Under the pieces are notes generated by a model. It was not told the DNA's origin, ran no database searches, and saw only the letters and a program-made list of their open reading frames with translations. Both the position numbers and the translations under genes were made by a program. Shown in pieces: positions 802 to 44,288 of a DNA stretch of 64,000 nt. Origin of the DNA: Phycisphaeraceae bacterium (GTDB taxonomy: Bacteria; Planctomycetota; Phycisphaerae; Phycisphaerales; UBA1924); assembly GCA_019636655.1 (NCBI GenBank), contig JAHBXB010000001.1, positions 744,001-808,000 of the forward strand. The letters run 5' to 3'. How positions within the stretch are numbered: the stretch's first letter is position 1; every line of letters begins with the position of its first letter.

Positions 802-5070
<4,269 letters not shown>

Positions 5071-6234: not shown

Positions 6235-6308
6235 CGGGGTGTAGCGCAGCTTGGTAGCGCGTCTCGTTCGGGACGAGAAGGTCGAAGGTTCAAATCCTTT
6301 CACCCCGA
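6235..6308 (+). tRNA. tRNA-Pro (anticodon CGG), integration target
   Basis: Complete cloverleaf. Acceptor CGGGGTG pairs with CACCCCG, the anticodon arm TCTCG/CGAGA encloses loop TTCGGGA (anticodon CGG), and the T arm GAAGG/CCTTT has loop TTCAAAT. The discriminator base is A, and CCA is not encoded. A -10-like TACCAT lies at 6215-6220. The last nine bases (TCACCCCGA) are the core shared with the att copies downstream, and a recombinase gene on the other strand ends inside the tRNA. The gene therefore looks regenerated by an integration event. Confidence 0.95.
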
Positions 6309-7780
6309 CTTGTTTCAGAGTAAAGCCCTTCGATGAGCACATCGAAGGGCTTTCTCGTTGAAAACACAGCACTTGCGCCATCCAGGGTGCAGTTCAAACA
6401 GACGATTTCGAGGATTCGCCGCTTCGTGGCGTAATCCGCAGAAACCCACGTGTTTTGCAGTGTTTGCGAGAGTTCAAACACCTTGGCCGCGAGCTCGGCC
6501 GTTTCGTCGTGGGAACGGTCCAGAACGTCCAGTTGCAGCTTGATGGACGCGAGCCGGTCCCGAAGCTCGGTGTGCTTGCGGGCGAAGGTGTCCTGATCCA
6601 CGTCATCGCCGAGCCGGAGGTTCAGGAGTCGGTCCTGCTGGGCCACCAGGAGCGAGGACTGCCGCAGGAGTTCCTCCCGCTGAGCCCGGGCGTCGGATTG
6701 GGCGTCCCGCGTCTGTGACGCGAGGACAGCCCGGAACCAGTCCCGAACGTCGGGATCGTCCACCTTCATACGAGCGAAGAGTTCCAGCACCTGGCGCTCA
6801 ATCTCGGATTCCGGCACCCGCACCCGCGGATGCCCGTCGGTGGTGTACCGGCTGCACCGGTAGTACACGTACCGACGATCGCCGGACTTGGCCCGCTTGA
6901 TGATTTGCTCACCCGTGATGGCGTGGCCGCAGTGCCCGCAGGTCATGAACTCGCTGGCGAAGGTCATCTGGTGGGCGTGGTAGACATGCCCGCCGAGGAG
7001 GGCTTGCACTCGATCCCAGGTTGAGCGTTCGGCCAGTGGCGTCTGCTTGCCCGGATACCACTGTCCCTTGAACGGGATTTCTCCGATGTACGCCCGATCG
7101 GTGAGAATCGCGTGCAGCTTGCTGCGGGTGAACTTCGGAGCCTCCGGCCGGTACGTCAAGCCCTCCGCATGGAGCCGGTCACGAAGGGCGTCAAGGGTCA
7201 GTGGCTCATAGGCGTAAAGGTGGAAGATCCGTTTGACGTTCTCGGCTGCCGCCGGATCAACTTCGGTGACGCACCGACCATCCCTGCGGACGTTGCGGTA
7301 GCCATAGGGAGCCTTGCCGACGAACCAACCCTCCTGAACCCGACGAGCGAGGCCTTCGCGGACATCGACTGACTGTTGCTCGGTGTAGAAGCTCGCCATG
7401 TTGGCGAGTGTCCGCCGCATCATGCGGCCGGCGGGGTTGTTCTCTGTCGGCTGCGAGACGGAGATGAACCTGACGTCGTACTCCGATTCCAGACGTTCCA
7501 GTTCAACCATGTCGTAGAGGTTGCGGACCGCACGGTCCACCTTATAGAAGAGCAGCCCGTCCAGCTCTTCTGCATGCTTCTTCGCATAGGCAATTAGCTC
7601 GCGGAATGTTGTTCGCTCGTCTGCCTTTGACGCAGTTTCCGCGACCCGAAACAAGCGAACGATTTCGCCGCCAGCGGATGCGGCATATCGACGGAGAGCA
7701 TCCTCCTGCACGGCAAGCGAGAAGCCTTCGCGTTCCTGTTCCCGGCTGCTGACACGTGCCAAGGCGACGAAGCGTTTCAT
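6290..7780 (-). CDS. Large serine recombinase (integrase of the tRNA-Pro element)
   Basis: Site-specific recombinase of 496 residues that would integrate and excise the element. An N-terminal resolvase-type catalytic domain (about 1-150) starts MKRFVALARVSS, with the nucleophile Ser about residue 11. A recombinase domain follows (VREGLARRVQEGWFVGKAPYGYR), then a zinc-ribbon-like segment (MTCGHCGH ... YYRCSRY) and a coiled-coil-like region with a DNA-facing tail. The start at 7780 gives the standard N-terminus; upstream codons are Arg/Ser-rich and not protein-like. The stop and final residues SRGERI lie within tRNA-Pro. Downstream att copies encode SRGD/NRGD-TPIELFLE in the same frame, so the protein probably has a different, longer C-terminus when the element is circular. 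It follows the small gene at 7785 by four bases. Confidence 0.93.
   Translation of the reverse strand: MKRFVALARVSSREQEREGFSLAVQEDALRRYAASAGGEIVRLFRVAETASKADERTTFRELIAYAKKHAEELDGLLFYKVDRAVRNLYDMVELERLESEYDVRFISVSQPTENNPAGRMMRRTLANMASFYTEQQSVDVREGLARRVQEGWFVGKAPYGYRNVRRDGRCVTEVDPAAAENVKRIFHLYAYEPLTLDALRDRLHAEGLTYRPEAPKFTRSKLHAILTDRAYIGEIPFKGQWYPGKQTPLAERSTWDRVQALLGGHVYHAHQMTFASEFMTCGHCGHAITGEQIIKRAKSGDRRYVYYRCSRYTTDGHPRVRVPESEIERQVLELFARMKVDDPDVRDWFRAVLASQTRDAQSDARAQREELLRQSSLLVAQQDRLLNLRLGDDVDQDTFARKHTELRDRLASIKLQLDVLDRSHDETAELAAKVFELSQTLQNTWVSADYATKRRILEIVCLNCTLDGASAVFSTRKPFDVLIEGLYSETSRGERI
6300..6308 (+). other. attL core at the tRNA-Pro 3' end
   Basis: TCACCCCGA is the tRNA 3' end including the discriminator base. 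The same nine bases occur at 38997-39005, 39686-39694 and 44217-44225, and with one change at 46280-46288 and 50120-50128. On the minus strand it encodes the last residues of the recombinase, so it is read here as the crossover region of attL. Confidence 0.7.
6322..6358 (+). terminator. Hairpin downstream of tRNA-Pro, probable terminator inside recombinase codons
   Basis: A perfect 13-bp inverted repeat (AAAGCCCTTCGAT / ATCGAAGGGCTTT, six-base loop) followed by CTCGTT begins 14 bases after the tRNA. It is well placed to end or trim the tRNA transcript. The same bases on the other strand encode KPFDVLIEGL near the recombinase C-terminus. A related hairpin at 39709-39738 keeps its pairing although bases differ. 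The trailing U tract is short, so termination strength is uncertain. Confidence 0.6.
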
Positions 7781-7784
7781 GGCG

Positions 7785-8000
7785 TCACTCCCGCTTGAGA
7801 AGCTCGAACAACCGTCCTGCCGTCTGGACAATTGTAATCGCTTCTTCGACGGAAAGGGGCTTTCCGTAGCGGGGTTCCCACACTTTTCGCGTGAGGAGCA
7901 CGAGCTCCGGCGTGATCCACTCGGGCGTACCGACAGGAAGCGACGCCGGGGCATCACGCCGCGCAACCAGTTCGTCAAGATGGAGCGTCCGTCTCGCCAT
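7785..8000 (-). CDS. Small protein coupled to the serine recombinase
   Basis: Conserved-looking 71-residue protein of unknown activity whose stop codon is four bases before the recombinase start, so the two are almost certainly co-transcribed and translationally coupled. The central motif TPEWITPELVLLTRKVWEP followed by PLSVEEAITIVQTAGRLFELL is helical. It resembles small proteins I recall beside serine recombinases in planctomycetes and other phyla; that recollection is unverified. No catalytic motif, signal peptide or membrane segment is present. A recombination directionality factor or recombinase accessory role is inferred from position only. The start codon is the first of the frame. Confidence 0.75.
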   Translation of the reverse strand: MARRTLHLDELVARRDAPASLPVGTPEWITPELVLLTRKVWEPRYGKPLSVEEAITIVQTAGRLFELLKRE

Positions 8001-8031: not shown

Positions 8032-8733
8032 TCATGCAGCAGTCGCGGCGAATTTCGCCTTCTCACGCCTGTATGCCTCTGTCACCTGTTGGAACTTTCG
8101 GGATGCGGCTTCAACATCCGGCGGTGAAGCACCGGCGAGCCGATCGGGATGGAATCGCAGGCACGCCGCGCGGTACGCGGCCTGTACATCCTCCATCGAA
8201 GCGCCAGGCGATAAGCCGAGCAATTTCAGATCGTCAAACGATGCGTCTCCACCATCGGTCGTCGAAGGAATTGGTTCTGGCTGTTGCTCCGCCGCCACTG
8301 CTCGCATCCACGCTGCGATGCTGTCGCATTCGTCCGCCGCGCACTCGCAGAACGTATTCATGGCAGACGGTGAATAGGTCACGCACGAGACGGGCTCGAT
8401 CCGGAACTGGATGAACGTGCTGCGGCCGTCATCGCCGAAGCCCGCGACGGCCAGTGCCGGAATCTCTCGCCACGACAGCGGGCGCTGTGCAGGGACTTGC
8501 AGAACACTCGTGTCGCCTCGAAGGAATACGTCCATGATTTCGTCCGATGCTTTCAGCACGAACCCGCGCTCCGCCATGTTCTGGCGGAAAAGGCGACGGG
8601 TCGTCGGGCCGGGCACGGGGACGCTCAGAATCCGGGTCAATCGCAGTCGGACTTTCATGGTCTCGGTCTTTTTCAGCCAGCGGTGAAAATAGATCGCGGC
8701 AGCAATGAAGCCGACAAGGGCAAGCAGGTACAT
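8032..8733 (-). CDS. Membrane-anchored protein with C-terminal J domain
   Basis: 233 residues. The N-terminus (MYLLALVGFIAAAIYFHRWL) is one membrane helix. The middle has no recognised fold. Residues from about 168 to the end form a DnaJ-like domain (LGLSPGASMEDVQAAYRAA, then LRFHPDR with the invariant His-Pro-Asp), so the protein should stimulate a DnaK-type ATPase at the membrane. It leads a minus-strand series toward the recombinase and probably belongs to the element's transfer or maintenance set because it is flanked by coupling-protein and recombinase genes. A J domain at the C-terminus behind a membrane anchor is unlike the general chaperone DnaJ. Target unknown. Confidence 0.8.
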   Translation of the reverse strand: MYLLALVGFIAAAIYFHRWLKKTETMKVRLRLTRILSVPVPGPTTRRLFRQNMAERGFVLKASDEIMDVFLRGDTSVLQVPAQRPLSWREIPALAVAGFGDDGRSTFIQFRIEPVSCVTYSPSAMNTFCECAADECDSIAAWMRAVAAEQQPEPIPSTTDGGDASFDDLKLLGLSPGASMEDVQAAYRAACLRFHPDRLAGASPPDVEAASRKFQQVTEAYRREKAKFAATAA

Positions 8734-9737: not shown

Positions 9738-11246
9738 TCAGGCTTTCTGCCTGAACGTCACGGGGAGCCAAGTGCGCCCCGAGCCTTCAAACACTCTTCC
9801 GTTCTGAAAGACGATCGCATCGACGACACCGCGATTGGCCGTGCCGCCAGTGCGAAGCCGTGTGAACTCCCTTGGTTGAACTTCGTACTCCCATGTTTCC
9901 GAGAAGCCGCCGCTGGTACTGCCCGATGCACCGAGCCACGAGAGGCCCAGCACGGCATTTGCCTGCTCTTCCGATGAATAGCTGCTGCTGCCGTTGGCCA
10001 GGCACTGCCGCGACCGCCCGATGAGGCCGGAGGCCCATTCGTTGGTTACGGGATCGCCGTTGGCGTGCAGAATCTTGGTGTTGAGATTGGCCAGAAGCGA
10101 ATCGGTTTCGGCCCGTGCCTTTTCTCCACCGCCCAGAGCCGCGATGAAGTTGCTGTAGTTCTGTGAGAGCAGGACCGTTGCCACGCGGGCAGCACGGCAA
10201 GTGGTCTGGAACTGCATGTCGTATGAGGTGACGAAGTGCTGTGCCTCGTCGGTCCACAGAAACGCCGGACGCGGGCTCTGCCTCACGTCGCGCCGCTCGA
10301 TGTCGCGCTGCACAGCGTATTTCCAGAGGACCTGCGCGAACTGGCCGACCTCGGCGTACTCCTTCACGGGCAGGTCGATCACGATCACCTTCCCGTGCGG
10401 GATCGCAGCAGGCGTGATGTTTGTCTCCGTGCAGAAGAGTTCACGCAGCAGGCCCCGATTCAGAACATCGACCATCGATGTGAACGTGGACACGATGACG
10501 CTGCGCGTCTTGTCGCTCAAGGCGGGGAACTCCTGCATGAAATAGTCGGCGACGATCTCGAAGTCTGTTTGCTGGCGAGATCCCTTGCCACGCCTATCTG
10601 CATCCGCCAAGCACTGGAAGCAGAACGAGGACTTTTTCCATTCTTCTGAGGCAAGCTGCTCGCGTGATGTGGGAGCCGACACCACCAGCCGGTACAGATC
10701 GGGAATGGTGACTCTGCCTTTCGCGAACACCAGCAGATCGACGAGATTGCGGCAGAGTTGACGGTTCGCTCGCTTCCAGTAGCCAGAGTCTTCACGGCCA
10801 TCCCCACCAGCGGCCGTGCTTCGCTCAGCCACTTCAAGCACGGTCGAGAGCAGATTGACGATGTTCTCAGTCAAACCAGCGCCGCCACCGTCACGCTTGA
10901 GTTCGTGATCCAGGAAGGAAAACCGCCAGGGAGACGACGGCCCGAAGACGATCAGGTCATCATGGCGTCCGGCTTCGCGGCAATATGTCTCCCAGAGTGC
11001 CCGTTCATCGGGCTTGGCGGTGAGTACAAGCCCACCGAAACCAGCGCGGAGCATCGCCAGGGCCAGCGTACGTCCGCTGCCGGATGACTTGCCTGATCCC
11101 GTAGCTCCGAGTATGAGCGTTCCTTCCACCGCGTCTCGCAGTGTCCAGAGATCGTGGTCGTTCCAGTGGAGCAGAGGTGACCCGAGATCCCATGAAGGTG
11201 CAGGCGCGGAGGATTTGCGGAATAGGCCAAACATCGGTGCCTCCAA
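9738..11246 (-). CDS. VirD4/TraD-like type IV coupling ATPase
   Basis: 502 residues. Hexameric ATPase family that hands relaxase-DNA complexes to a type IV secretion channel. Walker A is GATGSGKSSGSG near residue 50 and Walker B is AFLWTDEAQHFV near 320. The VLSQNYSNF and ILHANGDPVTNEW segments suit the TraD/VirD4 C-terminal half of the ATPase core. There is no N-terminal membrane anchor, unlike classic VirD4. The neighbouring multi-pass protein at 9077 may supply it. It is four bases downstream of a 28-residue membrane peptide and follows parB. No VirB ATPases or pore proteins are in the window. A second start four codons in (MFGLF) is equally possible. Confidence 0.88.
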   Translation of the reverse strand: MEAPMFGLFRKSSAPAPSWDLGSPLLHWNDHDLWTLRDAVEGTLILGATGSGKSSGSGRTLALAMLRAGFGGLVLTAKPDERALWETYCREAGRHDDLIVFGPSSPWRFSFLDHELKRDGGGAGLTENIVNLLSTVLEVAERSTAAGGDGREDSGYWKRANRQLCRNLVDLLVFAKGRVTIPDLYRLVVSAPTSREQLASEEWKKSSFCFQCLADADRRGKGSRQQTDFEIVADYFMQEFPALSDKTRSVIVSTFTSMVDVLNRGLLRELFCTETNITPAAIPHGKVIVIDLPVKEYAEVGQFAQVLWKYAVQRDIERRDVRQSPRPAFLWTDEAQHFVTSYDMQFQTTCRAARVATVLLSQNYSNFIAALGGGEKARAETDSLLANLNTKILHANGDPVTNEWASGLIGRSRQCLANGSSSYSSEEQANAVLGLSWLGASGSTSGGFSETWEYEVQPREFTRLRTGGTANRGVVDAIVFQNGRVFEGSGRTWLPVTFRQKA

Positions 11247-11345: not shown

Positions 11346-12176
11346 CTACTTGCGCTTTGAAGAGACCAGTGCTACTGCATCGCTCATCGCTGTTCCGTCG
11401 GCACTGACAGCCCGCAGGCGCTCGACGAGATCGGTGAGCCAGTTCACCACCGCATCGATCGAGAGCGTCGGCGCGGACACGATGACAGAGCGTCCTTCAC
11501 CGAGAGGAATCACAACTCGCTCACGCGGTGAAGCCGTTCGCCGACGGGGCATGTGGCCGCCCTTGGCCTGGCTTGCTGATCGAACTTTGGCGACCACCGC
11601 TTCTCGCGACAGATGACCGTTCACGGCCTCAGCGGTAAGCCGCTCACGTTCAGTCGAATCGGCGACCTTTGCGACTTCGTACGCGGTACTCATCGCGAGC
11701 CTGCCGGCAGTGAGATGTTCCTTTACGTCGGGCGGAAGGACGAGGAGAGCGAGGAGTTTGGAGATACTTGCCGGCGACAGGCCGAGCTTCACCGCGACTT
11801 GGGCCGCCGTCCATCCGGTTTCAGTCATCAGCCGATTGATCGAGGTCGCCCGTTCGATCGGGCTGAGGCCGACTCTCTGAGCGTCGATCACGAGTTGACG
11901 GTGAGTGACATCCGCTTCGGTCAAAGATTGCTCCTCGACGATGATCGGGACGGTGGTTAGACCGGCAAGCTTCGCAGCCCGCAACCGCCGTTCGCCGTCT
12001 AGAACTACGAGCAGGTCTCCGTCACGACGTACCAGGAGCGGTTGATGAATGCCGCCGGACTCCGCGATGCTGCGAGCAAGCCCCGTGATCTCTTGGTCCG
12101 AGTAGCCGGAGGACTGCCGTACCTGCGGGCGGCAGACGAGAGCGTCAACCGGCGCATGGGACAGTGTCGTGTTCAC
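11346..12176 (-). CDS. parB: ParB/Spo0J-like partition protein
   Basis: 276 residues. The N-terminal ParB nuclease-like/CTPase domain contains SIAESGGIHQPLLVRR and the diagnostic DGERRLRAAKLAG. A central helix-turn-helix follows (WTAAQVAVKLGLSPASISKLLAL), with a short basic linker and a C-terminal dimerisation-like segment. Known ParBs bind parS sequences and work with a ParA ATPase to segregate replicons. Here the ParA gene is 9 kb away at 21240, so this protein may act on a different site or as a regulator. The start codon overlaps the stop of the YkvA gene by four bases (ATGA), indicating one operon reading toward the recombinase. Confidence 0.88.
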   Translation of the reverse strand: MNTTLSHAPVDALVCRPQVRQSSGYSDQEITGLARSIAESGGIHQPLLVRRDGDLLVVLDGERRLRAAKLAGLTTVPIIVEEQSLTEADVTHRQLVIDAQRVGLSPIERATSINRLMTETGWTAAQVAVKLGLSPASISKLLALLVLPPDVKEHLTAGRLAMSTAYEVAKVADSTERERLTAEAVNGHLSREAVVAKVRSASQAKGGHMPRRRTASPRERVVIPLGEGRSVIVSAPTLSIDAVVNWLTDLVERLRAVSADGTAMSDAVALVSSKRK

Positions 12177-15523: not shown

Positions 15524-15928
15524 TCACCACTTTATCTGCTCGACAACTGTGGCCTCTTCCGGTGACTCCAAGCTCTCTGGTTGGTCGGCCTCTTGCACCC
15601 ACGACACCCTGTGCCGCGCGATCCCCTCGAACAGTCGGACCGTCGATCGTACTTCCGAGTTGAGGTTACGCCCTTTGACTTGGATCTTCCGGCCGGCAAC
15701 GGAGAGCGTGATTCCATCAGATGGATTGAACTCGACATGGTCGAGGTAGCCATATCCGACGGCAAGGATGTTCCCATCCTTCTTGCGAAGTTCGAGCATC
15801 ACGGCACGATCGCGGATTCCGCGGAGCCAGCCGAAGCACCCGCAGTCCTCCGTTGTGTCTGACTCCGAACCGTGTGGCGTGTCTTCATTCTTGCCGGAGT
15901 ACCGCTGAAGAATCGATCTATCGGTCAT
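15524..15928 (-). CDS. Hypothetical protein downstream of the relaxase
   Basis: 134 residues, unrecognised. The central beta-rich part (DRAVMLELRKKDGNILAVGYGYLDHVEFNPSDGITLSV) ends in GRKIQVKGRNL and FEGIARHRVSWVQEAD, which looks like a compact all-beta domain. The N-terminus is polar and the C-terminus acidic. Its start lies inside the relaxase gene (11-base overlap), so it is translated from the relaxase message. Being paired with the relaxase suggests an accessory role in mobilisation; the sequence gives no direct evidence. Confidence 0.75.
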   Translation of the reverse strand: MTDRSILQRYSGKNEDTPHGSESDTTEDCGCFGWLRGIRDRAVMLELRKKDGNILAVGYGYLDHVEFNPSDGITLSVAGRKIQVKGRNLNSEVRSTVRLFEGIARHRVSWVQEADQPESLESPEEATVVEQIKW

Positions 15929-18563
15929 ACGTCATCCCTTCTCTTTCGTGCGGCTGATCCGTCAGAATCGGCAGCAATCGCTCAAGCCGCCATTGGTGCC
16001 GGCCCCGCTCACGAAGGTCGGCCCCCATCAGGTCGCTGGCCGCCAGCTTGTCGTCTGAGTGGCTGACCGCTTCGAGGAGCGCCTCCTTGTCGTCCGTGTA
16101 GATGGTCGCGCCAACGCGACCGCGCGACACAGACACGTAGAACTGCTCTCGCGATGATGCTGGAAGTGAATGGGACGACTGAGCGATGAACACTCGCTTC
16201 ACTGTCTTTCCCTGGGAAGCGTGCGAGGTCACGACATAGCCGTGCGAGAGATGCCCGAATGCCCTGCAGATGGTCCACTTGTTCGTGAGCCGGATGTCGC
16301 CGCTGCTCGTGAATCCCGCGACGGTATAGAGCGTGCCATTGTTCAGGTCATGCAACCCGTCAGCCGTCTTGCCGTTCCGCGTGATGCGTATCCGGTCGCC
16401 GGGAGCAAGCGGCAGAACGCTTCGCCTGAAGACCTGGAACTTGCTCGCGTCGGCAAATGGAATCGCGTCAACTCCGACCGTGAGCCGCTGACCCTTCCGT
16501 ACGCCCTTTGCATTCTGGTGAAACACCAGCACGTCACCGGGGGCATAGTTGAGCGGGTCCATTCGCTCGGCCTCTGTGAAATTGACGGCCTCCAGGGATT
16601 CCACGCGATGCTCGCCGCTTCCGAGCTTGCCCATAGTCTTGAGCCGTGATCGAATCTCATCGGTGATCCACTCGCCCTCCAAGTGTGTCGGCGAGACGAC
16701 GAGAGCGGCCTTGTCAGACGGGTCCTCCGACACTGCCTTCACGTAGTCTTCCGCGAGCACCCTATACCGATCCACATCGGACACTTCCTTGATCCATCCC
16801 AGGTCATCCAGTTGCCGGAACCCGGCGGGCGTGTTTCCGCTGCTCAAGGCCTGGACGGCGTCCCGGTATTCACCGCTCTGCCTCTGAATCTCGCGAAGTT
16901 CCGCAGGAACCAAGCCAGCTTGGTCCTCCAGGAGACGCAAAGCGGCCCCGCGTTCCACCGATCCGTGCTGCCGACGGTCGCCCGAGAGGATGACGCGGGT
17001 GTGCAGACGATCAGCCAGGTCGAACACCCGACCCATCGTGCGAGTCCCGAGCAACCCCGCTTCGTCGATCCATATCACCTGGTCGCGAAGCTCTGCCTGC
17101 ATGCGATCGTCGGTCAGCAGCCGGGCAACGGTCTCTGCCTTGCTGAATCCCTCCTCTTCTCGGAGCACGCCGCGGCTTGCGCCGGCCGACGGAGCGAACG
17201 TGAAGACCTCCTTGCCCGTCGCCTCAATGGCCTCGATGGTCTCTTTCATCATGGTCGTCTTGCCGGTTCCAGCACCGCCACGAACCAGAATGACACGGTC
17301 TCGCGAATGGAGCACATGCTCGACAGCGCGGCGCTGGTCATGGCTGAGGTGTTGACGCTTGAAGGCGTGGATGCCTCGCACCAACTGACGGCACGCGCCG
17401 CGACCATTGCGGGCAAACACGATCATGTCTCGCTCCTCGGAGAGCACGCGCCGCGTCGTGACAAGACGACGCCCATCTCGCTGCGCAGTCAGCACGTCCG
17501 CGACCGCGACCTTGGCTACGACTGTTTCCGGAGATGCCGCGCCGACCGCCCGCCGCAGAGCCTCTGTCAGCAGTCGGCGCTCCGGCACAACGGAAGCCCG
17601 TTCGAAGGTGTGGTCGAGAGCGTTCCGCACCGCCTCACTCGCCAGACGATCGTCTTCGGCCATCTCCTCGCGCCCGATCCGCGCTCGGACGGACTGCATG
17701 GCCGTGAGTTCTTCCGCCGACATCCGCGCCGTCCACTGCTCTTGCAACTCATCGAACCGAAGGTTCTTCTGCTTCTTCTCCCTCGTCTTCGCGCCCAGCT
17801 CGCCCTTAGCGTCCGGGTCGGTAATGCCGAGCTCTTTCGCGAGTTCCTCAATCTGCCTCGTGCGCCGCGAGAACTTTGTGATCGCCGAGGATGGCACTCC
17901 GCACAGATCCCACCCTTGTTTCGTGCGTTCAACCGCCAGCCCGAGTTCCTCGAGCCGGCGAGCCAGCCGCGAGTGAAAGACCGCCTCAAAGAACGGAGCA
18001 TCGCGCTTGATGCCGGCGAACTGTCCGGCCTTCCAGCGCTGTTCGACCGGGTCCCATGTGGAGTTGAAGACGAAGCAATGGACGTGCAGCTGCGGATCAG
18101 GCAATCCATCGACCGGCCTGCCGGTCGTGTGCAGGTACTGGCCGTAGACCATGTTGCCGGTTGTCCGATCCTCGTTCCGACCCCCGGACCGCACGCGTGT
18201 CTGCATCTCCGCTTCGATGTCTTCCATCGTCGCGTCTACAGAATCACGGATCGCGTCGGCAATCCGCTGATCTTTAGACACCGCGTAAAGGAGCGAGACG
18301 CTCTTGGGCACGTTGAACGTGAAGTCGTAGCCCACTCGCCTGTCTCTCTTGATGCGCTGCGTAAGCGGCTCCCCGCTCCATGGGTCGCGATTGTCGCACA
18401 GCGCGTCCCATTGCTCCTGTCGAATCACACCGCCCAATCCCAGTCGCCTTGCACCCTCGCCCCGCCAAAGGCCGACAAGCTCCTGACCTTCGCTGTAGTA
18501 GTCAGCCGTACTGAAGTACGACTGCGCGCCGGCGGACGACGTGTTCTGGATGATGCGCAGCAT
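15918..18563 (-). CDS. MobF-family relaxase-helicase (TrwC/TraI-like)
   Basis: 881 residues. The N-terminal relaxase domain has tyrosines in SYFSTADYYSEG (catalytic candidates near residues 16-23) and the metal-binding histidine motif PDPQLHVHCFVFN near residue 165. The C-terminal part is a RecD-like superfamily 1 helicase with Walker A VRGGAGTGKTT near 430, IWIDEAGLL and LSGDRRQHGSVERG. Later helicase motifs GYVVTSHASQGKT and SVSRGRVG are also present. Such proteins nick oriT, stay linked to the 5' end and unwind the transferred strand. It is shorter than F TraI. The nick site should be in the 526-base region upstream (18564-19089). With the coupling protein at 9738 it makes the element mobilisable. 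Confidence 0.95.
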   Translation of the reverse strand: MLRIIQNTSSAGAQSYFSTADYYSEGQELVGLWRGEGARRLGLGGVIRQEQWDALCDNRDPWSGEPLTQRIKRDRRVGYDFTFNVPKSVSLLYAVSKDQRIADAIRDSVDATMEDIEAEMQTRVRSGGRNEDRTTGNMVYGQYLHTTGRPVDGLPDPQLHVHCFVFNSTWDPVEQRWKAGQFAGIKRDAPFFEAVFHSRLARRLEELGLAVERTKQGWDLCGVPSSAITKFSRRTRQIEELAKELGITDPDAKGELGAKTREKKQKNLRFDELQEQWTARMSAEELTAMQSVRARIGREEMAEDDRLASEAVRNALDHTFERASVVPERRLLTEALRRAVGAASPETVVAKVAVADVLTAQRDGRRLVTTRRVLSEERDMIVFARNGRGACRQLVRGIHAFKRQHLSHDQRRAVEHVLHSRDRVILVRGGAGTGKTTMMKETIEAIEATGKEVFTFAPSAGASRGVLREEEGFSKAETVARLLTDDRMQAELRDQVIWIDEAGLLGTRTMGRVFDLADRLHTRVILSGDRRQHGSVERGAALRLLEDQAGLVPAELREIQRQSGEYRDAVQALSSGNTPAGFRQLDDLGWIKEVSDVDRYRVLAEDYVKAVSEDPSDKAALVVSPTHLEGEWITDEIRSRLKTMGKLGSGEHRVESLEAVNFTEAERMDPLNYAPGDVLVFHQNAKGVRKGQRLTVGVDAIPFADASKFQVFRRSVLPLAPGDRIRITRNGKTADGLHDLNNGTLYTVAGFTSSGDIRLTNKWTICRAFGHLSHGYVVTSHASQGKTVKRVFIAQSSHSLPASSREQFYVSVSRGRVGATIYTDDKEALLEAVSHSDDKLAASDLMGADLRERGRHQWRLERLLPILTDQPHEREGMTYDR

Positions 18564-20645: not shown

Positions 20646-21239
20646 CCGATGTGTGCCTGAAACGGCACGCTGAGGTGTGCCCTCTTTACTTGCTCCAGGT
20701 TCAGAACATCCGGGCACGCATTCCGGAAGTCGCCTGATGTTCACCGGCGCACGCTCCGCGCCAGTCGTGGCATCGCCTGTCACGTCCCGTGCTGATGCAC
20801 CAAAGAGCTTCCCACCGGCCAAGAACCTTGCCGGCAGATGTATCGCTGACCGGATGCCCGGCCTTTCGCATCGGGTTCCGGCTCATGCGAGAACCCGACG
20901 GCGACGGCCTTATACGGCAGATTCTTCCGAGCCTGTAACCCTGCTTTGACTCCACAGCAGTTTGTGTGCGCACAACTACGCCGAGACAGAAAGTGCCAGC
21001 AGACGTCTCCCCTAAGCTCTGCTTAGGCCAAGTTTCACCGTGAAAGCCTGCATGACAGCTTGCCAGCCATCCAGCTTGCTGTCCGTCATGATTGCTGGCA
21101 TGACGGACAGCCTGAATGCGTGCATGACAGCTTGCAGGCCAGCAAGCTGGAAAGACAGCATGCCAGCTTGAAGGCTTGCTGGCGTGCCCACAAGAAATAC
21201 TGCTTGCCAGCCAGCATGAAATCGTGCTAGCAGTCAAGC
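20646..21239. promoter_or_regulatory. Repeat-dense non-coding region upstream of parA, candidate centromere (parS-like)
   Basis: Bases 20646-21000 hold nothing I can name. From 21011 to 21239 the DNA is full of repeats. There is an inverted repeat CCTAAGC/GCTTAGG at 21011-21027, the palindrome TTTCACCGTGAAA at 21032-21044, and a perfect 13-bp inverted repeat GCTGTCCGTCATG / CATGACGGACAGC at 21078-21111. CATGNCAGCTTG recurs at 21051, 21123 and 21159 (spacings 72 and 36). TGCTTG/CAAGCA spans the parA start. This layout suits a centromere and operator for ParA and the small protein at 21930. Confidence 0.5.
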
Positions 21240-21920
21240 ATGATCATCGCCGTCGCGAACTCGAAAGGAGGAGTCGGGAAATCGACCCTCGCCGTTCACC
21301 TCGCCGCGTGGCTCCACAAGCAGGGCCACCGCGTCACGCTCGCCGACTGCGATACCCAGCAGTCATCCTCGCAATGGGCTCGCGAGGCGGCGCCGCAGGT
21401 CAAGGCCCTGTGCCTCCGCGACCCGGACGAGATCATCAACGAACTCCCCATGCTCGCCCAAGACACTGACTACGTCGTGGCCGATGGCCCAGGTAGCCTC
21501 GCCGAGACGAGCCGAGCCCTGCTCCTGGTCGCTGATTCGGCCATCGTGCCGTGCAAGGCGTCGATGCTGGAGATACGCGCTCTTGACGCGGCAACCAAGG
21601 TGCTCCGCCAGGCGCAGAAAATCCGAATGGGAATGCCCAAGGCCAAGATCGTGCTGAGCATGGTGGGGCGGCACTACCGGCTGACACAGGACATGCGGGA
21701 GGCCGCGGCGCTGCTCGCGCTTCCAATTTCACCGACCTTCATGACACTCCGGCAGATTTACGCCGACGCGCCGGGCCAGGCGGCGGTCGTGTGGAACATG
21801 GGCTCCCGAGCCCGCGAGGCCGCCGATGAGGTTGACAGGCTCTTCCACGAGCTCGTCCCGGAAGCTATCGCAAAAGCGGCGAAACCGTCAGGTCTACGCC
21901 GACAGAACACCGCAACGTAG
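21240..21920 (+). CDS. parA: ParA-family partition ATPase
   Basis: 226 residues. The deviant Walker A KGGVGKST lies at the N-terminus (MIIAVANSKGGVGKST), with switch motif LADCDTQQSSSQW and VVADGPGSLAETS as the Walker B region. Being short, without an N-terminal helix-turn-helix, it resembles type Ib ParA/ParF proteins, which pair with small ribbon-helix-helix partners; such a partner candidate follows at 21930. The start codon is part of an inverted repeat, suggesting autoregulation by the partner. Together with the upstream repeats it forms a plasmid-like partition cassette. Confidence 0.93.
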   Translation: MIIAVANSKGGVGKSTLAVHLAAWLHKQGHRVTLADCDTQQSSSQWAREAAPQVKALCLRDPDEIINELPMLAQDTDYVVADGPGSLAETSRALLLVADSAIVPCKASMLEIRALDAATKVLRQAQKIRMGMPKAKIVLSMVGRHYRLTQDMREAAALLALPISPTFMTLRQIYADAPGQAAVVWNMGSRAREAADEVDRLFHELVPEAIAKAAKPSGLRRQNTAT

Positions 21921-32068: not shown

Positions 32069-35000
32069 TTACAGGGTTGAGGGAACAGGAACCGCAGGAC
32101 CACCCGCTGTGGTCGAACCGTTCTGCGGAGGGACTGGGTTATGGACGAGCGGCCGGTGTGAGTCCGCCTCCTCAACGGATGCGTCGGGCACGACGCGGGG
32201 CTCGAACCACCGGTAGAGCACGGGGAGAACAAACAGCGTCAGGAATGTGCTGCTGACCACACCCCCGATGACCACCGTGGCTAGTGGCCGCTGCACTTCG
32301 GCACCCATGCCCGTGGCAATCGCCATCGGAATGAAGCCGAAGGCGGCCACCAAGGCAGTCATCAACACCGGGCGAAGTCGAACCAGGCTCCCGGAGATGA
32401 CCGCCTCATCGACCGCCGTGCCTTGCTGCCGAAGCTGCCGAATAAAAGTCACCATCACGAGACCGTTCAGCACCGCGACGCCGGAAAGTGCGATGAATCC
32501 GACCGCCGCGGAGATCGAGAACGGCATGCCCCGCAGCCACAGTGCGGCTACGCCGCCAGTCATCGCGAGCGGAACCGCCGTAAAGACCAGGATCGCCAGC
32601 CGCACGGACCCGAAGGACAGGTACAGGAGAAGGAAGATGAGCAAGAGGGCGACCGGCACGACCACCAGCAGGCGCGTGCGGGCACGTTCCAGATTCTCAA
32701 ACTGCCCGCCCCATTCCAGCCGGTACCGGCCCTCTGGCAGGCGAATGTCCTGGGCAATCACCCGCTTGGCTTCATCGACGAACGAAGCCACGTCGCGCCC
32801 GCGGATGTTGGCCTGAACGGTGGTTCGTCTTTGTCCCCATTCACGGGTAATCGTGGAGGGGCCTTCAACCTCTCGGATTGTGGCGAGCCGGGCAAGCGGG
32901 ATGCGCTCGCCGTGCGGCGTCGGCAAGAGGATCGCACCGACCGCGGCAGGGTCACGACGGAGCCGCTCCGGGAGACGAACCGTGAGCGGAAAGCGGAGTT
33001 GCCCTTCGGTCACTTCCCCAAGCTCCATGCCGCCGATCGATTCAACAAGATCCAACACCGACCGCGCCGGGATGCCGTACCGGGCAATGGCTTCCTGATC
33101 AATCTGCACCTGGAGAATCGGTTGCCCGGTCAATTGCTCGGTGCTCACGTCTTCCGCTCCGTCAAGGCCCGTAACGAGGTCAGCAATCTCGGTACCCTTC
33201 TCCGTGAGCACCGCCAAGTCGTCACCGAACAGTTTGATCGCCACATCCGCCCTCACGCCCGAGCCCATCTCGTTCATCCGCATCTCAATGGGCTGAGTGA
33301 ACGCGATTCGCTGACCCGGAAGGTCCCGGAGTTCCTTGTTCATGGCCTCAATGAGCTCGCCTTGCGTCGATGCCTTGGTCCACCGGTCTCTGGGATGCAG
33401 CATGATGAATACGTCGGTCAGTTCGGTGCCCATCGGGTCTGTGGCGACTTCGGCCGAGCCGATGCGGCTCCAGACGTGCTTCACTTCGTCCGGGAAGGCT
33501 TTGAGAATGGCCCGCTCCATGAGCGTGTTGTACCGCACAGATTCGTCTAGGTCGGTGCCGGCCAATCGCACCACGTTCGCGATGATCGAGCCCTCAGTAA
33601 GCTTCGGCACAAACTCGGAGCCGAGTCCGTGGGCGACGATCAACGTGAGCAGCAGCAGCGCGACGGCTCCGATGACGACTGCGGCTCGCGCCCGCATCGC
33701 CAGCCGGAGCGCCGGTGCGTAAAGACGCTGGGCAAGCCGGACAACAAGCGGCTCTGTCTCTTTGACCCGCTTAGGGAGAAGGAGGCTCGCAAGCACTGGC
33801 ATGAGGGTGAGCGAGAGGACGAGCGACCCGACCAGGGCGAAGATGAACGTCAACGCCATCGGGCGGAACATTTTCCCTTCGATACCCTCCAGCGTCAGGA
33901 TCGGTAGGAAGACGATGATGATGATGAGTTCGCCGAACATCGTCGGCTTCCGCACCTCGATTGCCGCATCCCGGATCACGTCAATCCGACTCCGGCCCGT
34001 CGTGTTGTGGGAAAGCTGGCGTACGCAGTTCTCGACCATGATGACGGAACTGTCTACAACCAGGCCGAAGTCAATGGCGCCGAGGCTCAGCAGACTGCCG
34101 GCGATGCCGAACCGCAGCATCGAGTCGAACGCGAAGAGCATCGAGAGCGGGATCGCGGCGGCGACGATGAGCCCGGCTCGAAGGTTCCCGAGGAACACGA
34201 ACAGGACGGCGATCACGAAGAGGCCGCCCTCAAAGAGATTGGCTTTCACCGTTCCAATGACCTCATCGACAAGCTCGGTCCGGTCATAGACCGTTTCGAC
34301 CGTGACGCCGGCCGGAAGCGACGGCCGCAGTTCCTCGAGCTTGGCCTTGAGCCGCGAGGTCACTTCGTGACTGTTCTGGCCCATGAGCATGAAGCCGAGG
34401 CCCAGGACCGCCTCGCCCTTGCCGTCCGCTGTGACGGCACCGCGGCGAATCTCGTACCCGAGTGTCACCTCAGCAACGTCCTTGACCCGGATAGGCACGC
34501 CGTCTCGCGCTGCGATCGGGACGTTGGCTATCTGCTCGATGCCCGACACGCGGCCAAGACCATGCACCAGCAGCGTTCCCCCGCCGCGAGCCATGTTGCC
34601 GCCGCCGACGTTCGCGTTGTTCGCTCGGAGCGCGTCCGTCACTTCGCCAAACGAAAACGCGTGTTTGACGAGACGGTCGGGATCGACTTGGACTTCATAG
34701 ACCTTTTCATAGCCGCCCCAACTGTTAACCTCCGCCACTCCGGGCACGGCCCTCAGTGCGGGCTTGATCGACCAATCGTGGAGTGTCCGAAGTTCGGTCA
34801 GGTCATGGCGATCGCTCCGTACGACGTAGTGAAACACTTCCCCCAAGCCGGTAGCGATAGGACCCATCTGCGGTCGCGACAGGCCTTCCGGCAGTTCAAC
34901 CGTCGAGAGCCGCTCCGCCACAAGCTGACGAGCGAAGTAGATGTCGGTGCCGTCGGCAAACGTGACGACCACCTGTGAGAACCCGAACTTGGAGACGGAG

Positions 35001-35248
35001 CGGAGGTTCTCCAGCCGTGGGATGCCTGAGAGCGATTGCTCAACCGGGAACGTGATCTGCCGTTCGACCTCTTCAGGCGAGAGCGAGGGAGCGATGGTGT
35101 TGATTTGCACCTGCGCCGGCGTCGTGTCGGGGAAGGCGTCGATATCGAGTTGCCGGAGTGCCAGCACTCCGAGGCCCGCGAACAACAGCGATCCCACGAT
35201 GACGAGGAAGCGGTTCTTGAGCGACCAGGTGATGATCCAGTTCAGCAT
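32069..35248 (-). CDS. czcA: Heavy-metal RND efflux pump (CzcA-like)
   Basis: 1059 residues. Proton-driven inner-membrane pump of the HME-RND family with two sets of membrane helices and periplasmic loops. The opening WSLKNRFLVIVGSLLFAGLGVLAL and the proton-relay helix DFGLVVDSSVIMVEN match the Zn/Co/Cd type (D-x(5)-D-x(6)-E) rather than the Cu/Ag CusA type. VLFVFLGNLRAGLIVAAAIPLSMLFAF and IALSGVAVLNGLVMV are typical membrane segments. Works as a complex with the periplasmic adaptor and outer-membrane factor encoded just upstream; spacing to the adaptor gene is 12 bases. Metal specificity is inferred from the motif only. Confidence 0.95.
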   Translation of the reverse strand: MLNWIITWSLKNRFLVIVGSLLFAGLGVLALRQLDIDAFPDTTPAQVQINTIAPSLSPEEVERQITFPVEQSLSGIPRLENLRSVSKFGFSQVVVTFADGTDIYFARQLVAERLSTVELPEGLSRPQMGPIATGLGEVFHYVVRSDRHDLTELRTLHDWSIKPALRAVPGVAEVNSWGGYEKVYEVQVDPDRLVKHAFSFGEVTDALRANNANVGGGNMARGGGTLLVHGLGRVSGIEQIANVPIAARDGVPIRVKDVAEVTLGYEIRRGAVTADGKGEAVLGLGFMLMGQNSHEVTSRLKAKLEELRPSLPAGVTVETVYDRTELVDEVIGTVKANLFEGGLFVIAVLFVFLGNLRAGLIVAAAIPLSMLFAFDSMLRFGIAGSLLSLGAIDFGLVVDSSVIMVENCVRQLSHNTTGRSRIDVIRDAAIEVRKPTMFGELIIIIVFLPILTLEGIEGKMFRPMALTFIFALVGSLVLSLTLMPVLASLLLPKRVKETEPLVVRLAQRLYAPALRLAMRARAAVVIGAVALLLLTLIVAHGLGSEFVPKLTEGSIIANVVRLAGTDLDESVRYNTLMERAILKAFPDEVKHVWSRIGSAEVATDPMGTELTDVFIMLHPRDRWTKASTQGELIEAMNKELRDLPGQRIAFTQPIEMRMNEMGSGVRADVAIKLFGDDLAVLTEKGTEIADLVTGLDGAEDVSTEQLTGQPILQVQIDQEAIARYGIPARSVLDLVESIGGMELGEVTEGQLRFPLTVRLPERLRRDPAAVGAILLPTPHGERIPLARLATIREVEGPSTITREWGQRRTTVQANIRGRDVASFVDEAKRVIAQDIRLPEGRYRLEWGGQFENLERARTRLLVVVPVALLLIFLLLYLSFGSVRLAILVFTAVPLAMTGGVAALWLRGMPFSISAAVGFIALSGVAVLNGLVMVTFIRQLRQQGTAVDEAVISGSLVRLRPVLMTALVAAFGFIPMAIATGMGAEVQRPLATVVIGGVVSSTFLTLFVLPVLYRWFEPRVVPDASVEEADSHRPLVHNPVPPQNGSTTAGGPAVPVPSTL

Positions 35249-35260
35249 GGTGTATCTCGC

Positions 35261-36685
35261 TTAGTCGTCGGTGCAGCCGGCCCCGAGCTTTTCATGGTTG
35301 AGTTGCGCGACCAGGACATAGCTGCCCGCCGTGGCGATCTGCTCGCCGGACCGAAGGCCCGACCGAATCTCAACACGGCCATCCTCTTGAGCACCGATCG
35401 ACACAGTTCTCGCGGCGAAGACGGTGCTGTTCACTCGCACGAAGACCACGTTGGACGTGCCATCCCATTGGACCGCCTCGCTCGGTACTACGACCGCGGC
35501 TTCCGCTCGGGCGACCGCAATACGAGCACGCCCGAACGTGTGGGCCAGGACGCGGCCATCCGCGTTCGGAATCTCGGCACGCACCTGGACGGTTCGGGTC
35601 TTCTCATCTACCTCCGTGCTTGTCCACACCACGCGACCGCTCACCGTCTCATCAACAACGCCGTCCGGCGTGAACGTCAGTTCCTGTCCGACGACCACGC
35701 GCCGTGCGTCCGGGGGCGCGAGCGACGCCGTCACCCACATCCGCGACGTGTCGGCGACGACGAAGAGTGCCTTGCCGGATTCGACCAGTTCACCAGGGAC
35801 TACGCCTCGTGAGATCACCACGCCGTCAAGCGGCGACACGATCGGAAGCAGGTTTGCTGTAGTGCGGTCAGCGTCTAGGTCCGCGACGATCGCGGACGGA
35901 AGGCCGAGCAGCCGAAGGTCCTTCGCCGACGAGACGGCGCCGGCGGCGAGCGCCGGCGGCGTGAATCCAAGGTTGATGAGGGTCTGCTGAGTGTTGAAGA
36001 GGCGAATCTCGGCTTCCTTCAATTCCGCCTCCGCGGTTACCAGGTCCGCTTGGTTGCGGAAACCCGCCGTCGTGGACGTGCGAAGCCGCTCCACTGCTAC
36101 CCCGCGAGCTGAAACCTGTGCCGCCGCTTGGAGGTACTCGGTCTTGGCCGTCCCGACCGCTGCGGAGTCGATCAAGGCCAGCAGGTCGCCGGCTTTCACC
36201 CTGTCACCCGCCTGGACACGCACCATCGTGACGCTGCCGGCCGCACGTGAGCCGACCTGCGCGTAACGGGTCATGTCGTAGCCCACCTCCGCGTTTGCTG
36301 TGACGACAGAAGCGATGGGGCGGCTCTCTGCTTTCGCCGTAACGATGCCGGCCTTGCTCACGGACTCGGGCGTAGCGAACTGCACCGGCCGGGGTTTCTC
36401 TGGCGTCCCGTCCGCAGAACCCGCTTGGAGGGTCGGAGAGCTCCCTTCGCTATCTGGGACCGCCGCCTTCCCGCGGCAGATCAAGCACTGCGATTCGGGC
36501 ACGCCGTGCTCCATGCACCAGTCCGCACGAGCGGGCTTCTCACTGGAGACCAGCGATGCCGCTGGCGGCATCTTCCAGTGCAGTCTGTGGCCCACCACAG
36601 CCACAACCCCGAGGAGGCCGAGCGTGAGAACGGTTGGAAGGCCATGCAGGAGTGACCGAGCGGTCTGAGTTGCGATTCGTTTCAT
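35261..36685 (-). CDS. czcB: RND periplasmic adaptor (CzcB-like) with extra Cys motif
   Basis: 474 residues. Membrane fusion protein linking pump and outer-membrane channel. The N-terminal membrane helix (LTLGLLGVVAVVGHRLHW) is followed by DWCMEHGVPESQCLIC, the same Cys/His motif found twice in the lipoprotein at 31740. Then come the standard lipoyl-like halves (VGSRAAGSVTMVRVQAGDRVKAGDLLALI and VSPLDGVVISRGVVPGELV), an alpha-hairpin between them and beta-barrel domains (RAEIPNADGRVLAHTFGRARI). The start overlaps the outer-membrane factor stop by four bases. The motif suggests direct metal loading onto the adaptor. Confidence 0.93.
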   Translation of the reverse strand: MKRIATQTARSLLHGLPTVLTLGLLGVVAVVGHRLHWKMPPAASLVSSEKPARADWCMEHGVPESQCLICRGKAAVPDSEGSSPTLQAGSADGTPEKPRPVQFATPESVSKAGIVTAKAESRPIASVVTANAEVGYDMTRYAQVGSRAAGSVTMVRVQAGDRVKAGDLLALIDSAAVGTAKTEYLQAAAQVSARGVAVERLRTSTTAGFRNQADLVTAEAELKEAEIRLFNTQQTLINLGFTPPALAAGAVSSAKDLRLLGLPSAIVADLDADRTTANLLPIVSPLDGVVISRGVVPGELVESGKALFVVADTSRMWVTASLAPPDARRVVVGQELTFTPDGVVDETVSGRVVWTSTEVDEKTRTVQVRAEIPNADGRVLAHTFGRARIAVARAEAAVVVPSEAVQWDGTSNVVFVRVNSTVFAARTVSIGAQEDGRVEIRSGLRSGEQIATAGSYVLVAQLNHEKLGAGCTDD

Positions 36686-38211
36686 GGGTTGCTCCCATTG
36701 TGCAGAGGTGTTGGAGACTCTGATTCTGGTTCTTTCGCGATGAGCCGCCAGACCGGAAAGCCGCTGAGTGCTTCAAGGTCAAGGAGCGCACGCCGGTACG
36801 CCGTGAGCGTGTCGAGATACGCGCGACGTGTTCGCAACGACCGTTGCTGAGCCGTTACCCAGTCGAGAACGTTTAGCTCGCGGGCCTGGAACGCCGAGCG
36901 AAAGAGCGTCTGATTCCGCTCCAGAAGCGGAATGACTTCGCGGTCCTGAATATCAATCTCTGCCTTCGATGCACGAACGCGCGCGAGGGTGGAGGCGGCC
37001 TCTGACCGCAAGCGGTGAAGCTCCGCAACGTACTCTGCCCGCACGTGATCGCGAGCCGCCGTTCTTTCGGCGATCTCTCCCTGATTGCGGTCGAAGATCG
37101 GGACTTCGATCGATGCGCTCACCCCGGCATAGTTGTCGCTCGCGCCCTCATGGCTGTAGAGGGGGCCGGCTTTCAGTTTCGCATACTGCCGGGACACCGC
37201 GAGCATTAACTCATCCTCCGCGACCTGGTATTGTGCTTCCCGGGCCTTCAAGTCGAGCCGGCTCGTCAAGAGCCGTTCACCAAGGGTGTCGTCATCGGGG
37301 AGCTCGACCAGCGGAATCTCAAGCGGCTTTCCAGACGCTTCAAGCCTCACGGTGGTGGGAGGGGGAAGTCCCATTGCTCTATTGAGTGCAATCCTCGCCT
37401 GTTCCAGTTCTGCTAGGCCAAGTCGCCGGTCACGCTGGACTTCAACCAACTCCAGATCGACAGCCGACACATCAAGGTCGTTGGCCTCGCCGACGACGCG
37501 TCTTTGCCGAAGCAGGTCCGATGCTTGCTGCCGCAACGCGACTTCCGAGTCCAAGATAGCGACGGCCTGCTCAGCGACCAGGACATCGAAAGCGAGGCGT
37601 CGCACATCGGCCGCGAGCGAGTATTCCTTCGCGAGAACCTCCGCGCGCGAGAGCTCGATCCGCGATGCCGCCACAGCTTGCCGCGCCGACCGTTCACCAG
37701 GTTTGAGCAACTCAAATAGCAGGTCGGTGTCGAGCTTGAACCCATTGGTTCCGACGATACCGAGGCCGAATCCGACACCAATCTCTGGATTCGGCAGCGT
37801 CTTGGCCTTGATGAGTAATGCTTCTGACTCGCCGATACCGGCTCTCGCTGCCCGGAGATCCGGGCTGAGAACAACAGCGACGGCCATGAGTTCGCGGTCG
37901 CTCAAGCCGTCTGTGGGGTCAAAGACATCCGAGCCGTCTGCGGCTTCCGACGCGCCCATTTCGACTTTGGTCGCCGCGGGGATCGTGTGACTATTCAACG
38001 CGGCAAGTTCGGCGCGCGGGTCCAGGGGCCGCGGGCTATAGCTGACGCAACCGGAGAGGAGGCCAACGGCCGCGAGGCTCAGGCCGAGGATGATCGGGCT
38101 TCGCAAAGGAGTTCTCGTTCTAGATGCTGAGTGACGTAGACGCCGCTGCAAAGGCAGACAGCACGCGTGACCGTCAAATCCGTCCAGCGGGACAGATCGG
38201 CGGACCATCAC
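36682..38211 (-). CDS. czcC: Outer-membrane efflux lipoprotein (CzcC-like, TolC family)
   Basis: 509 residues. Signal peptide ending in lipobox LLSGC, then two repeated OEP domains with long coiled-coil helices (LVAEQAVAILDSEVALRQQASDLLRQR and LLERNQTLFRSAFQARELNVLDW). TolC-type outer-membrane factors form the exit duct of tripartite efflux pumps. The gene is first of the pump genes and overlaps czcB by four bases. The annotated start gives a rather long N-region before the hydrophobic core (IILGLSLAAVGLL), so an internal start is possible. Preceded by the small Cys-rich protein gene at 38216. Confidence 0.92.
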   Translation of the reverse strand: MMVRRSVPLDGFDGHACCLPLQRRLRHSASRTRTPLRSPIILGLSLAAVGLLSGCVSYSPRPLDPRAELAALNSHTIPAATKVEMGASEAADGSDVFDPTDGLSDRELMAVAVVLSPDLRAARAGIGESEALLIKAKTLPNPEIGVGFGLGIVGTNGFKLDTDLLFELLKPGERSARQAVAASRIELSRAEVLAKEYSLAADVRRLAFDVLVAEQAVAILDSEVALRQQASDLLRQRRVVGEANDLDVSAVDLELVEVQRDRRLGLAELEQARIALNRAMGLPPPTTVRLEASGKPLEIPLVELPDDDTLGERLLTSRLDLKAREAQYQVAEDELMLAVSRQYAKLKAGPLYSHEGASDNYAGVSASIEVPIFDRNQGEIAERTAARDHVRAEYVAELHRLRSEAASTLARVRASKAEIDIQDREVIPLLERNQTLFRSAFQARELNVLDWVTAQQRSLRTRRAYLDTLTAYRRALLDLEALSGFPVWRLIAKEPESESPTPLHNGSNP

Positions 38212-38825: not shown

Positions 38826-38970
38826 TTCAGATCGATCCGGCAATGTCGATAGACGGGTCAATCACCGTGACGCGCGGCGTCAGTGCCTGTGGGCTTTGCA
38901 CCCTATCTGCCTTTCACGGTTTCACGGGTGAGCAAAGCCCGGATTCCGGGTTCCCAGTCCCCTATCCCCG

Positions 38971-39007
38971 CCACAAAAAGTTCAACTGGCGTACTGTCAC
39001 CCCGATT
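38971..39007 (+). repeat. att copy A, right end (attR) of the element
   Basis: Arm AAAAAGTTCAACTGGCGTACTG followed by core TCACCCCGA (38997-39005). Read on the minus strand it encodes NRGDSTPVELFVAGIG, the recombinase C-terminal extension seen at the other att copies. The reading frame then ends after RETVKGR. With the tRNA core at 6300-6308 it defines the element. Confidence 0.75.
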
Positions 39008-39016
39008 GACGATCTA

Positions 39017-39056
39017 AACGCCCGCAGGCGAACACCCTGCGGGCGTTCTCGTTTTG
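39017..39056 (+). terminator. Terminator hairpin immediately right of attR
   Basis: Perfect 12-bp stem AACGCCCGCAGG / CCTGCGGGCGTT with a seven-base loop, then CTCGTTTT. Its position relative to the core is the same as the hairpin after the tRNA, so it probably served as the tRNA terminator before the current element inserted. Confidence 0.75.
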
Positions 39057-39125
39057 GGGCTTGACTGATCGCTTGTTCGGCAGCACGTTCTTGCACAGCA
39101 TTCAATGGCGTGATACACCGGTGGT

Positions 39126-39590: not shown

Positions 39591-39603
39591 GCGGCCGTCT
39601 TTG

Positions 39604-39750: not shown

Positions 39751-39962
39751 GACATGAGTTGCAGCGCAGTTCTGATGGTTCAAATACCTGCGCCGCACGG
39801 GCGAAGAATCACCTGAAATCGGCTGACTCATGAGAGGATTTGAACTCTCCACCCCAGCGCACAGAGCAGTTTCGGTGCTGGACGGCTGCGGCCACCATCG
39901 GGGGTGCTCCCGGCGGTTGCAGCGCGGGATACGCCCGCTCCGGTCTCGTATCCTCCAGTGCA

Positions 39963-44227: not shown

Positions 44228-44288
44228 CAACTCAGTAGAATCACGACCAGGCCACCGCACTATCTCACCCGCTCGAGGAGCACTCGCC

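Follow-up and report, generated by a model that had tools for sequence, protein, structure and literature searches.

What is the role of a 71-residue protein whose gene ends immediately ahead of that of a large serine recombinase (LSR)? An LSR alone catalyses the recombination of attP with attB, and a bound recombination directionality factor (RDF) reverses the reaction. Few LSRs have a known RDF, and the known ones are mutually unrelated and escape recognition from sequence, so that LSRs are of limited use for reversible genome engineering. The question is raised by a window of 64,000 nt (the whole stretch of DNA that was analysed) from a Phycisphaeraceae bacterium, in which the following features lie on the reverse strand:

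7785 to 8000, reverse strand: 71-aa recombinase partner, defined by the translation of its open reading frame, family alignments and an AlphaFold2 model, with a hairpin of residues 31-45 and 51-70
7781 to 7795, reverse strand: 3′ end of the partner gene with what is probably the ribosome-binding site for the recombinase, CGGGAG TGA CGCC ATG
6290 to 7780, reverse strand: LSR of 496 aa with catalytic, recombinase and zinc-ribbon domains (PF00239, PF07508, PF13408) and a coiled coil

The translation of positions 7785-8000 is MARRTLHLDELVARRDAPASLPVGTPEWITPELVLLTRKVWEPRYGKPLSVEEAITIVQTAGRLFELLKRE (71 aa) and contains the motifs PEWITPELVLLT and PLSVEEAI-TIVQTA-GRLFELL. Its TGA (7787-7785) is followed by CGCC (7784-7781) and then by the ATG of the recombinase at 7780; the protein, both motifs and the distance of four bases had been claimed in a sequence-only reading of this locus and were confirmed from the sequence. 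The same reading had called the protein conserved, and this was borne out by an alignment of 122 partner sequences, in which W28 is invariant and T37, W41, Y45 and A54 are nearly so, all of them being retained in homologues down to about 21-25% identity. Purifying selection was evident in informative pairs, those of homologues at moderate divergence (e.g. L020/L146 with 30 synonymous versus 11 non-synonymous changes, dN/dS 0.09), and dN/dS was below 1 in 1527 of 1569 pairs with a median of 0.55, the pairs being non-independent. Because of these conserved residues and the purifying selection, the partner is a real gene and not a chance reading frame. Acidic proteins prevail in the family (pI below 6.5 in 90 of 127 members), the protein of the window having a pI of 8.2.

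In the AlphaFold2 model of the partner, residues 31-45 and 51-70 form two helices that pair as a hairpin, the mean pLDDT being 80.8 and the pTM 0.62. Block values of pLDDT amount to 87-94 over residues 21-70, except for the last block, and to 52-55 over the first 20 residues. The predicted fold is all-helical, includes a further helix at residues 3-14 with low confidence, has no strands, and lacks the winged helix-turn-helix of excisionases of the winged-helix Xis/RdfS type. Searches with the protein of the window gave no Pfam, NCBIfam or meaningful PHROG match (one PHROG tail family, E 0.52), and no match was found in plasmid and phage collections. The 122 members compared with Pfam gave scattered weak matches, among them DUF7706 in 7 of 122 (best E 0.009), which were taken as chance. 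A profile search of PDB chains with the partner family returned no match, and the predicted fold had a best E of 2.9 in Foldseek (none of 56 matches at E <= 0.001) and a best Z of 3.0 in VIA-align, which does not amount to a demonstration of a new fold. An impression by eye that the partner is homologous to the first hairpin of the recombinase domain was rejected (profile-profile probability 0.7%, BLASTP E 1.1). Full-text searches of mostly subscription-free literature, directed at RDFs of LSRs, at planctomycetes, at tRNA genes and at the neighbourhood of LSR genes including upstream and overlapping ones, brought up no description of the partner family, which is weak evidence of absence; the main text of Durrant et al. 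2022 (PMC10083194) contains neither the word tRNA nor the stem Planctomyc-.

The recombinase itself matches the N-terminal resolvase domain PF00239 with an E of 2e-21, PF07508 with 5e-11 and PF13408 with 3e-10. An earlier start (TTG at 7978) would also be in frame, but relatives align from the ATG at 7780. In a model of a relative (L084), two long helices, H424-471 and H477-515, are predicted to form the C-terminal coiled coil. The best structural matches of this model are the full-length integrases of SPbeta, Bxb1 and phiC31 (E 8e-19 to 8e-15), with TM-scores of only about 0.3 against solved LSRs because the domains are placed differently. At the level of the model, these matches confirmed the LSR architecture of the recombinase.

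The spacing of both genes is tight in most of the family. Overlaps were found in 95 of 137 non-redundant pairs, 65 of them by exactly 4 bases (often ATGA), and gaps of 0-10 bases in a further 33, so that 128 of 137 pairs overlap or lie at most 10 bases apart; of the remainder, three have distances of 11-300 bases and six are without a measurable neighbour. Of 128 recombinase starts, 111 have a Shine-Dalgarno-like motif ahead of them, compared to a background of 14%. The corresponding figure for partner starts, 58 of 137, is no clean count, since the start codons of the partner were chosen partly by such a motif. Tight spacing together with the recombinase's own Shine-Dalgarno-like motif indicates that partner and recombinase are co-translated, and a shorter transcript could yield the recombinase alone via its own ribosome site.

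Linkage between partner and recombinase was surveyed in both directions. Among 200 relatives, 27 genomes had a partner match at E <= 0.01. The 33 places (window included) gave 30 loci, and in 29 of these the partner directly precedes this kind of recombinase; only the weakest match, L029 (E 0.009), departs from the pattern. A profile search of a draw from the phylum detected the partner in 43 of 392 genomes at 54 places, and examination of all 54 loci placed it directly upstream of an LSR at 46. The other eight comprise one locus with recombinase fragments 1.9 kb away (L237), one with a recombinase remnant (L241), one at a contig end (L244), one weak match (L247) and four without a recombinase nearby (L215, L233, L234, L263). 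A draw at the level of the order had the partner in 31 of 170 genomes and immediately upstream of an LSR at 44 of 53 places; the nine others include one at a contig start that was counted without its locus sequence. A further draw from the organism's own order had it in 40 of 400 genomes. Whether homologues adjoin this type of recombinase was the check proposed by the sequence-only reading, and at most places (46 of 54 and 44 of 53) they do. The refuting condition named there, a majority of homologues apart from recombinases, did not hold. In L233, a partner-like segment (2992-3204) forms the end of a longer reading frame, beside a frame resembling an excisionase-type helix-turn-helix by eye, with no serine recombinase nearby.

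Conversely, the partner accompanies 73 of 80 recombinases from named genomes (72 strong matches and a weak one, L104); these are the best 80 of 315 confirmed candidates, with 57-98% identity. As deposited, the labels are mostly Planctomycetota, with others naming, for example, Synechococcus, Anaerolineales and Alphaproteobacteria. In L063 and L105 the strong partner match lies upstream on the same strand at a distance, with DNA between. No partner match was found upstream in seven of the 80 named loci (L051, L062, L066, L083, L098, L100, L102). L098 starts inside the recombinase and therefore misses the upstream side, and L051, L062, L066, L100 and L102 hold full-length recombinases. Two of these, L066 and L102, stand at an intact tRNA; they may be trapped elements unable to leave, or may indicate a dispensable partner. 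L102 carries a tandem pair of recombinase genes at a tRNA-Pro.

Among the 80 retained of 109 confirmed relatives in IMG/VR, the partner was found upstream in 33 loci (L113-L143, L145, L146) and a fragment (L153), and fused in L144; the remaining 45, more distant recombinases are without it. Its presence with near and absence with distant recombinases indicates that the partner marks one LSR clade. It goes with two recombinase subfamilies, each comprising about 70 members.

The surroundings of the pair are formed by a tRNA gene on one side and by the genes of a mobile element on the other:

6235 to 6309, forward strand: tRNA-Pro(CGG), into whose 3′ end the recombinase gene runs with its final codons and stop; int-side attachment site
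8032 to 8733, reverse strand: DnaJ-domain protein (PF00226), next upstream of the partner, an element gene outside the conserved pair
9738 to 11246, reverse strand: TraG/TrwB-type coupling ATPase of the element (PF12696, PF10412)
11346 to 12176, reverse strand: ParB-like protein of the element (PF02195, PF17762)
15918 to 18563, reverse strand: TrwC relaxase with helicase (PF08751, E 3e-69)

Since the recombinase stop (6290) lies inside the tRNA-Pro gene, the locus represents the int end of an element that has inserted into this tRNA gene. In 60 of the 78 named loci with a full recombinase, a tRNA begins 12-15 bases past the end of the recombinase profile (47 Pro, 7 Ser, 6 Ala), and in the IMG/VR loci a tRNA, always Pro, was found at the recombinase end in 13 of 30, with 11 of the 17 others too short. 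The last recombinase codons are thus tRNA sequence, because in most clade members the 3′ end of the gene lies within the tRNA gene. In most loci without a full tRNA, its 3′ half is still present as far as the anticodon loop, beyond which the sequences diverge, as judged by eye; they suggest that the crossover falls in this loop and that the 3′ half of the tRNA belongs to the element. The far end of the element was not located, and a second copy of this half was not found in the window or its own genome, and no clear one in the genome of L034. Genome G842 holds three copies that are not at tRNA genes, two of them interrupted.

Beyond the pair, the order is the DnaJ-domain gene, two genes without assigned family, the coupling protein and the ParB-like gene, followed further on by the TrwC relaxase, a ParA-like ATPase and an ArdC-type gene. 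Judged by these genes, the element is mobilisable or conjugative with its integrase end at the tRNA gene, the TrwC relaxase marking the type. Directly ahead of the ParA-like gene at 21240, a 41-nt repeat with the core CATGACAGCTTGC occurs three times (21036-21240), possibly as partition or operator sites. A 42-nt repeat with TGTACTGYCACCCCGAT is present in five copies over 11 kb (38965-50129). The region 32069-38211 with an RND efflux transporter (PF00873), a CusB/HlyD-type fusion protein and a 509-aa reading frame (36682-38211) is possible cargo. A Hen1-type RNA repair protein (PF12623, PF08242 and related) is encoded at 39840-41363, then a 914-aa reading frame at 41230-43974.

The partner recurs in 72 of the 80 named loci. 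By comparison, the coupling ATPase recurs in 24, the ParB-like gene in 17 and the DnaJ-like gene in 15, with an undercount of genes further away because no locus includes more than 4 kb of flank. The partner is the only constant neighbour, and the next upstream genes are kept only in close relatives. The argument of the sequence-only reading that no other candidate for a directionality factor lies near stands in so far as these upstream genes are unconserved (DnaJ-like in 15 of 80). It falls short in that an RDF need not adjoin int; excision of PLE 1 of Vibrio cholerae is reportedly driven by a phage-encoded directionality factor (PMC6002521).

A natural fusion bears on the question of contact between both proteins. 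On a viral contig, L144 (4001-6007) encodes a 668-aa serine recombinase whose last part is DGWITHDMIAWAQTLWAAPQNRTPTEDEVIEMHRNVKRLVELV with a short tail behind it. This hairpin resembles the partner, with an E of 7.7e-6 in the whole set of reading frames and of 3.9e-8 within the locus. The partner-like domain is at the recombinase C-terminus, with about 130 extra residues between (L144, P0003). This single case argues for a physical association and is silent on the direction of action. No further fusion of this kind was recognised from match ranges and frame lengths at 33 viral loci and 39 places in the 392 genomes. An apparent in-frame fusion in G258 (L223/L253) was discarded as a frameshift, the first 29 recombinase residues lying in another frame. 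A single-chain read-through model of partner and recombinase (L084) showed both folds with a pTM of 0.47; no docking is visible because the partner N-terminus and the linker are disordered and the pTM is low. The model is no test against binding. Taken over all 144 non-redundant pairs, a domain distance regression singled out the catalytic and recombinase domains; by subfamily, it singled out the coiled coil in one recombinase subfamily and not in the other. Mean-field DCA with an effective number of 103 gave a top inter-protein score of 1.27, compared to 1.03-1.24 in six permuted sets. Neither approach to coevolution yielded an interface between partner and recombinase.

The observation is thus confirmed, and the partner is conserved and goes specifically with one LSR clade. 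It is well supported that the 71-aa protein is the dedicated partner of this clade, mainly in Planctomycetota; linkage, spacing, conservation and fusion together indicate a dedicated and probably physically interacting LSR partner, the binding being probable on account of the natural fusion. Very probably, it is a helper which controls the insertion or removal of the element. The sequence-only reading had proposed an RDF or a recombinase stabiliser. Its claim of a recombinase partner is upheld by the counts in both directions (46 of 54, 44 of 53 and 73 of 80), and of the two roles our best guess is that of a putative RDF acting in excision, to which we assign a probability of about one half, stabilisation being the less probable one. 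The partner has the RDF trait of being small and encoded by the same element (71 aa, adjacent gene, 73 of 80 loci). Nothing resembling the partner in sequence or fold appeared in the phiC31 record, the phi3T ends, the PDB profile search, Foldseek or VIA-align, the direct comparison with phiC31 sequences and phi3T ends giving no similarity. As known RDFs are unrelated to each other, likeness to one is not required.

The clade inserts mobile elements into tRNA-Pro and also tRNA-Ser or tRNA-Ala genes. According to the RDF proposal, the helical hairpin of the partner would dock on the recombinase and alter the setting of its coiled coil, and the altered coiled coil would favour excision (attL x attR) over integration (attP x attB). 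In the SPbeta complex, the RDF is seen on the integrase together with the coiled coil (PMC12412911). A shorter transcript would supply the recombinase alone for integration and a longer one both proteins for excision. Against an RDF stands the observation, stated in PMC6957869, that int is often constitutive and rdf tightly regulated apart from it, whereas here the genes are translationally coupled; the recombinase's own ribosome site may reconcile coupling with such regulation. A permanent fusion as in L144 is odd for a switch, and the full-length recombinases without partner (L051, L062, L066, L100, L102) and the 8 of 54 family members not beside an intact recombinase also speak against it. 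On the same side count the lack of similarity to phiC31 sequences, phi3T ends and PDB chains, of visible docking in the read-through model and of an interface from coevolution.

The main rival, which we hold to be possible though doubtful, is an obligate co-factor or stabiliser, i.e. a subunit or folding partner that the recombinase would need for integration and excision alike, e.g. to keep its dimer stable or to bind tRNA-derived sites, with excision controlled otherwise. Translational coupling with 4-base overlaps fits a fixed stoichiometry, the permanent fusion in L144 agrees with a subunit, and the partner accompanies nearly every member of the clade. The same five full-length recombinases without partner are hard to reconcile with an obligate role, and the recombinase carries all standard LSR domains. 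Moreover, characterised LSRs integrate alone, CD1231 for example being sufficient for integration according to PMC5025042. Tentatively, and with doubts of a similar kind, both genes may constitute a two-gene module spread across the phylum on viral contigs and mobilisable elements. Such a module would combine an LSR clade that targets anticodon loops (Pro/Ser/Ala) with an obligate hairpin subunit, and direction would be set by the ratio of partner to recombinase with no separately regulated factor.

The remaining alternatives place the effect of the gene outside the recombination reaction. An autoregulator, in which the hairpin acts on transcription or the recombinase promoter and limits the integrase level, would be in keeping with a small helical protein at the head of an operon. 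We consider it improbable, as there is no match to a known DNA-binding domain, 90 of 127 members are acidic (though not the protein of the window) and a fusion at the recombinase C-terminus would be unexpected. That the gene is only a leader frame, whose translation opens the recombinase start while its product is irrelevant, would explain the tight spacing and ATGA overlaps; the conservation of W28, T37, W41, Y45 and A54 across 122 sequences, the confident hairpin fold, purifying selection and the L144 fusion make this very improbable. An unrelated passenger travelling by linkage only, to which the few solitary copies (L215, L263, L234) could point, is scarcely credible, since all other neighbours are exchanged while the partner stays and tracks both recombinase subfamilies.

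Returning to the partner as a putative RDF, a clade-wide family of this kind would supply well over a hundred recombinase-partner pairs with predictable tRNA targets and would allow comparative tests of LSR partner roles. In addition, the pair provides a way into one class of planctomycete mobile elements, namely those that insert in tRNA genes.

Among known systems, conjugative elements with tyrosine integrases such as pSAM2 and Tn916 have Xis encoded by a small gene directly upstream of int and co-expressed with it. These belong to another recombinase family and fold, and the partner model is without their winged helix. The RDF of the C. difficile skin element, CD1234, is characterised in PMC5025042 as an LSR-specific, acidic excision factor with no similar proteins; it differs in having its own sigma-E/SpoIIID promoter, uncoupled from the recombinase gene. 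SprB, the RDF of SPbeta, is likewise a small acidic LSR helper, the gene of which lies in a unit attL-sprB-sprA-attR according to PMC6957869, and its system offers a structure of the integrase-RDF complex (9DXD). In contrast to the pair described here, SprB has a separate promoter, with int and rdf at opposite ends of the prophage, and the partner family has no sequence or fold match to PDB chains. The closest tested layout is found in the skin element of B. subtilis, whose RDF Skr (64 aa) is required for excision as reported in PMC6957869. Skin does not lie in a tRNA gene, unlike the partner elements, and the overlap of its genes is 101 nt instead of the 4-base overlaps or short gaps typical of the partner family. 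The likeness is one of layout: in both cases a small protein is encoded upstream of an LSR gene and overlapping it, the skr frame lying immediately upstream of the LSR gene spoIVCA and extending over its 5′ end (PMC6957869).
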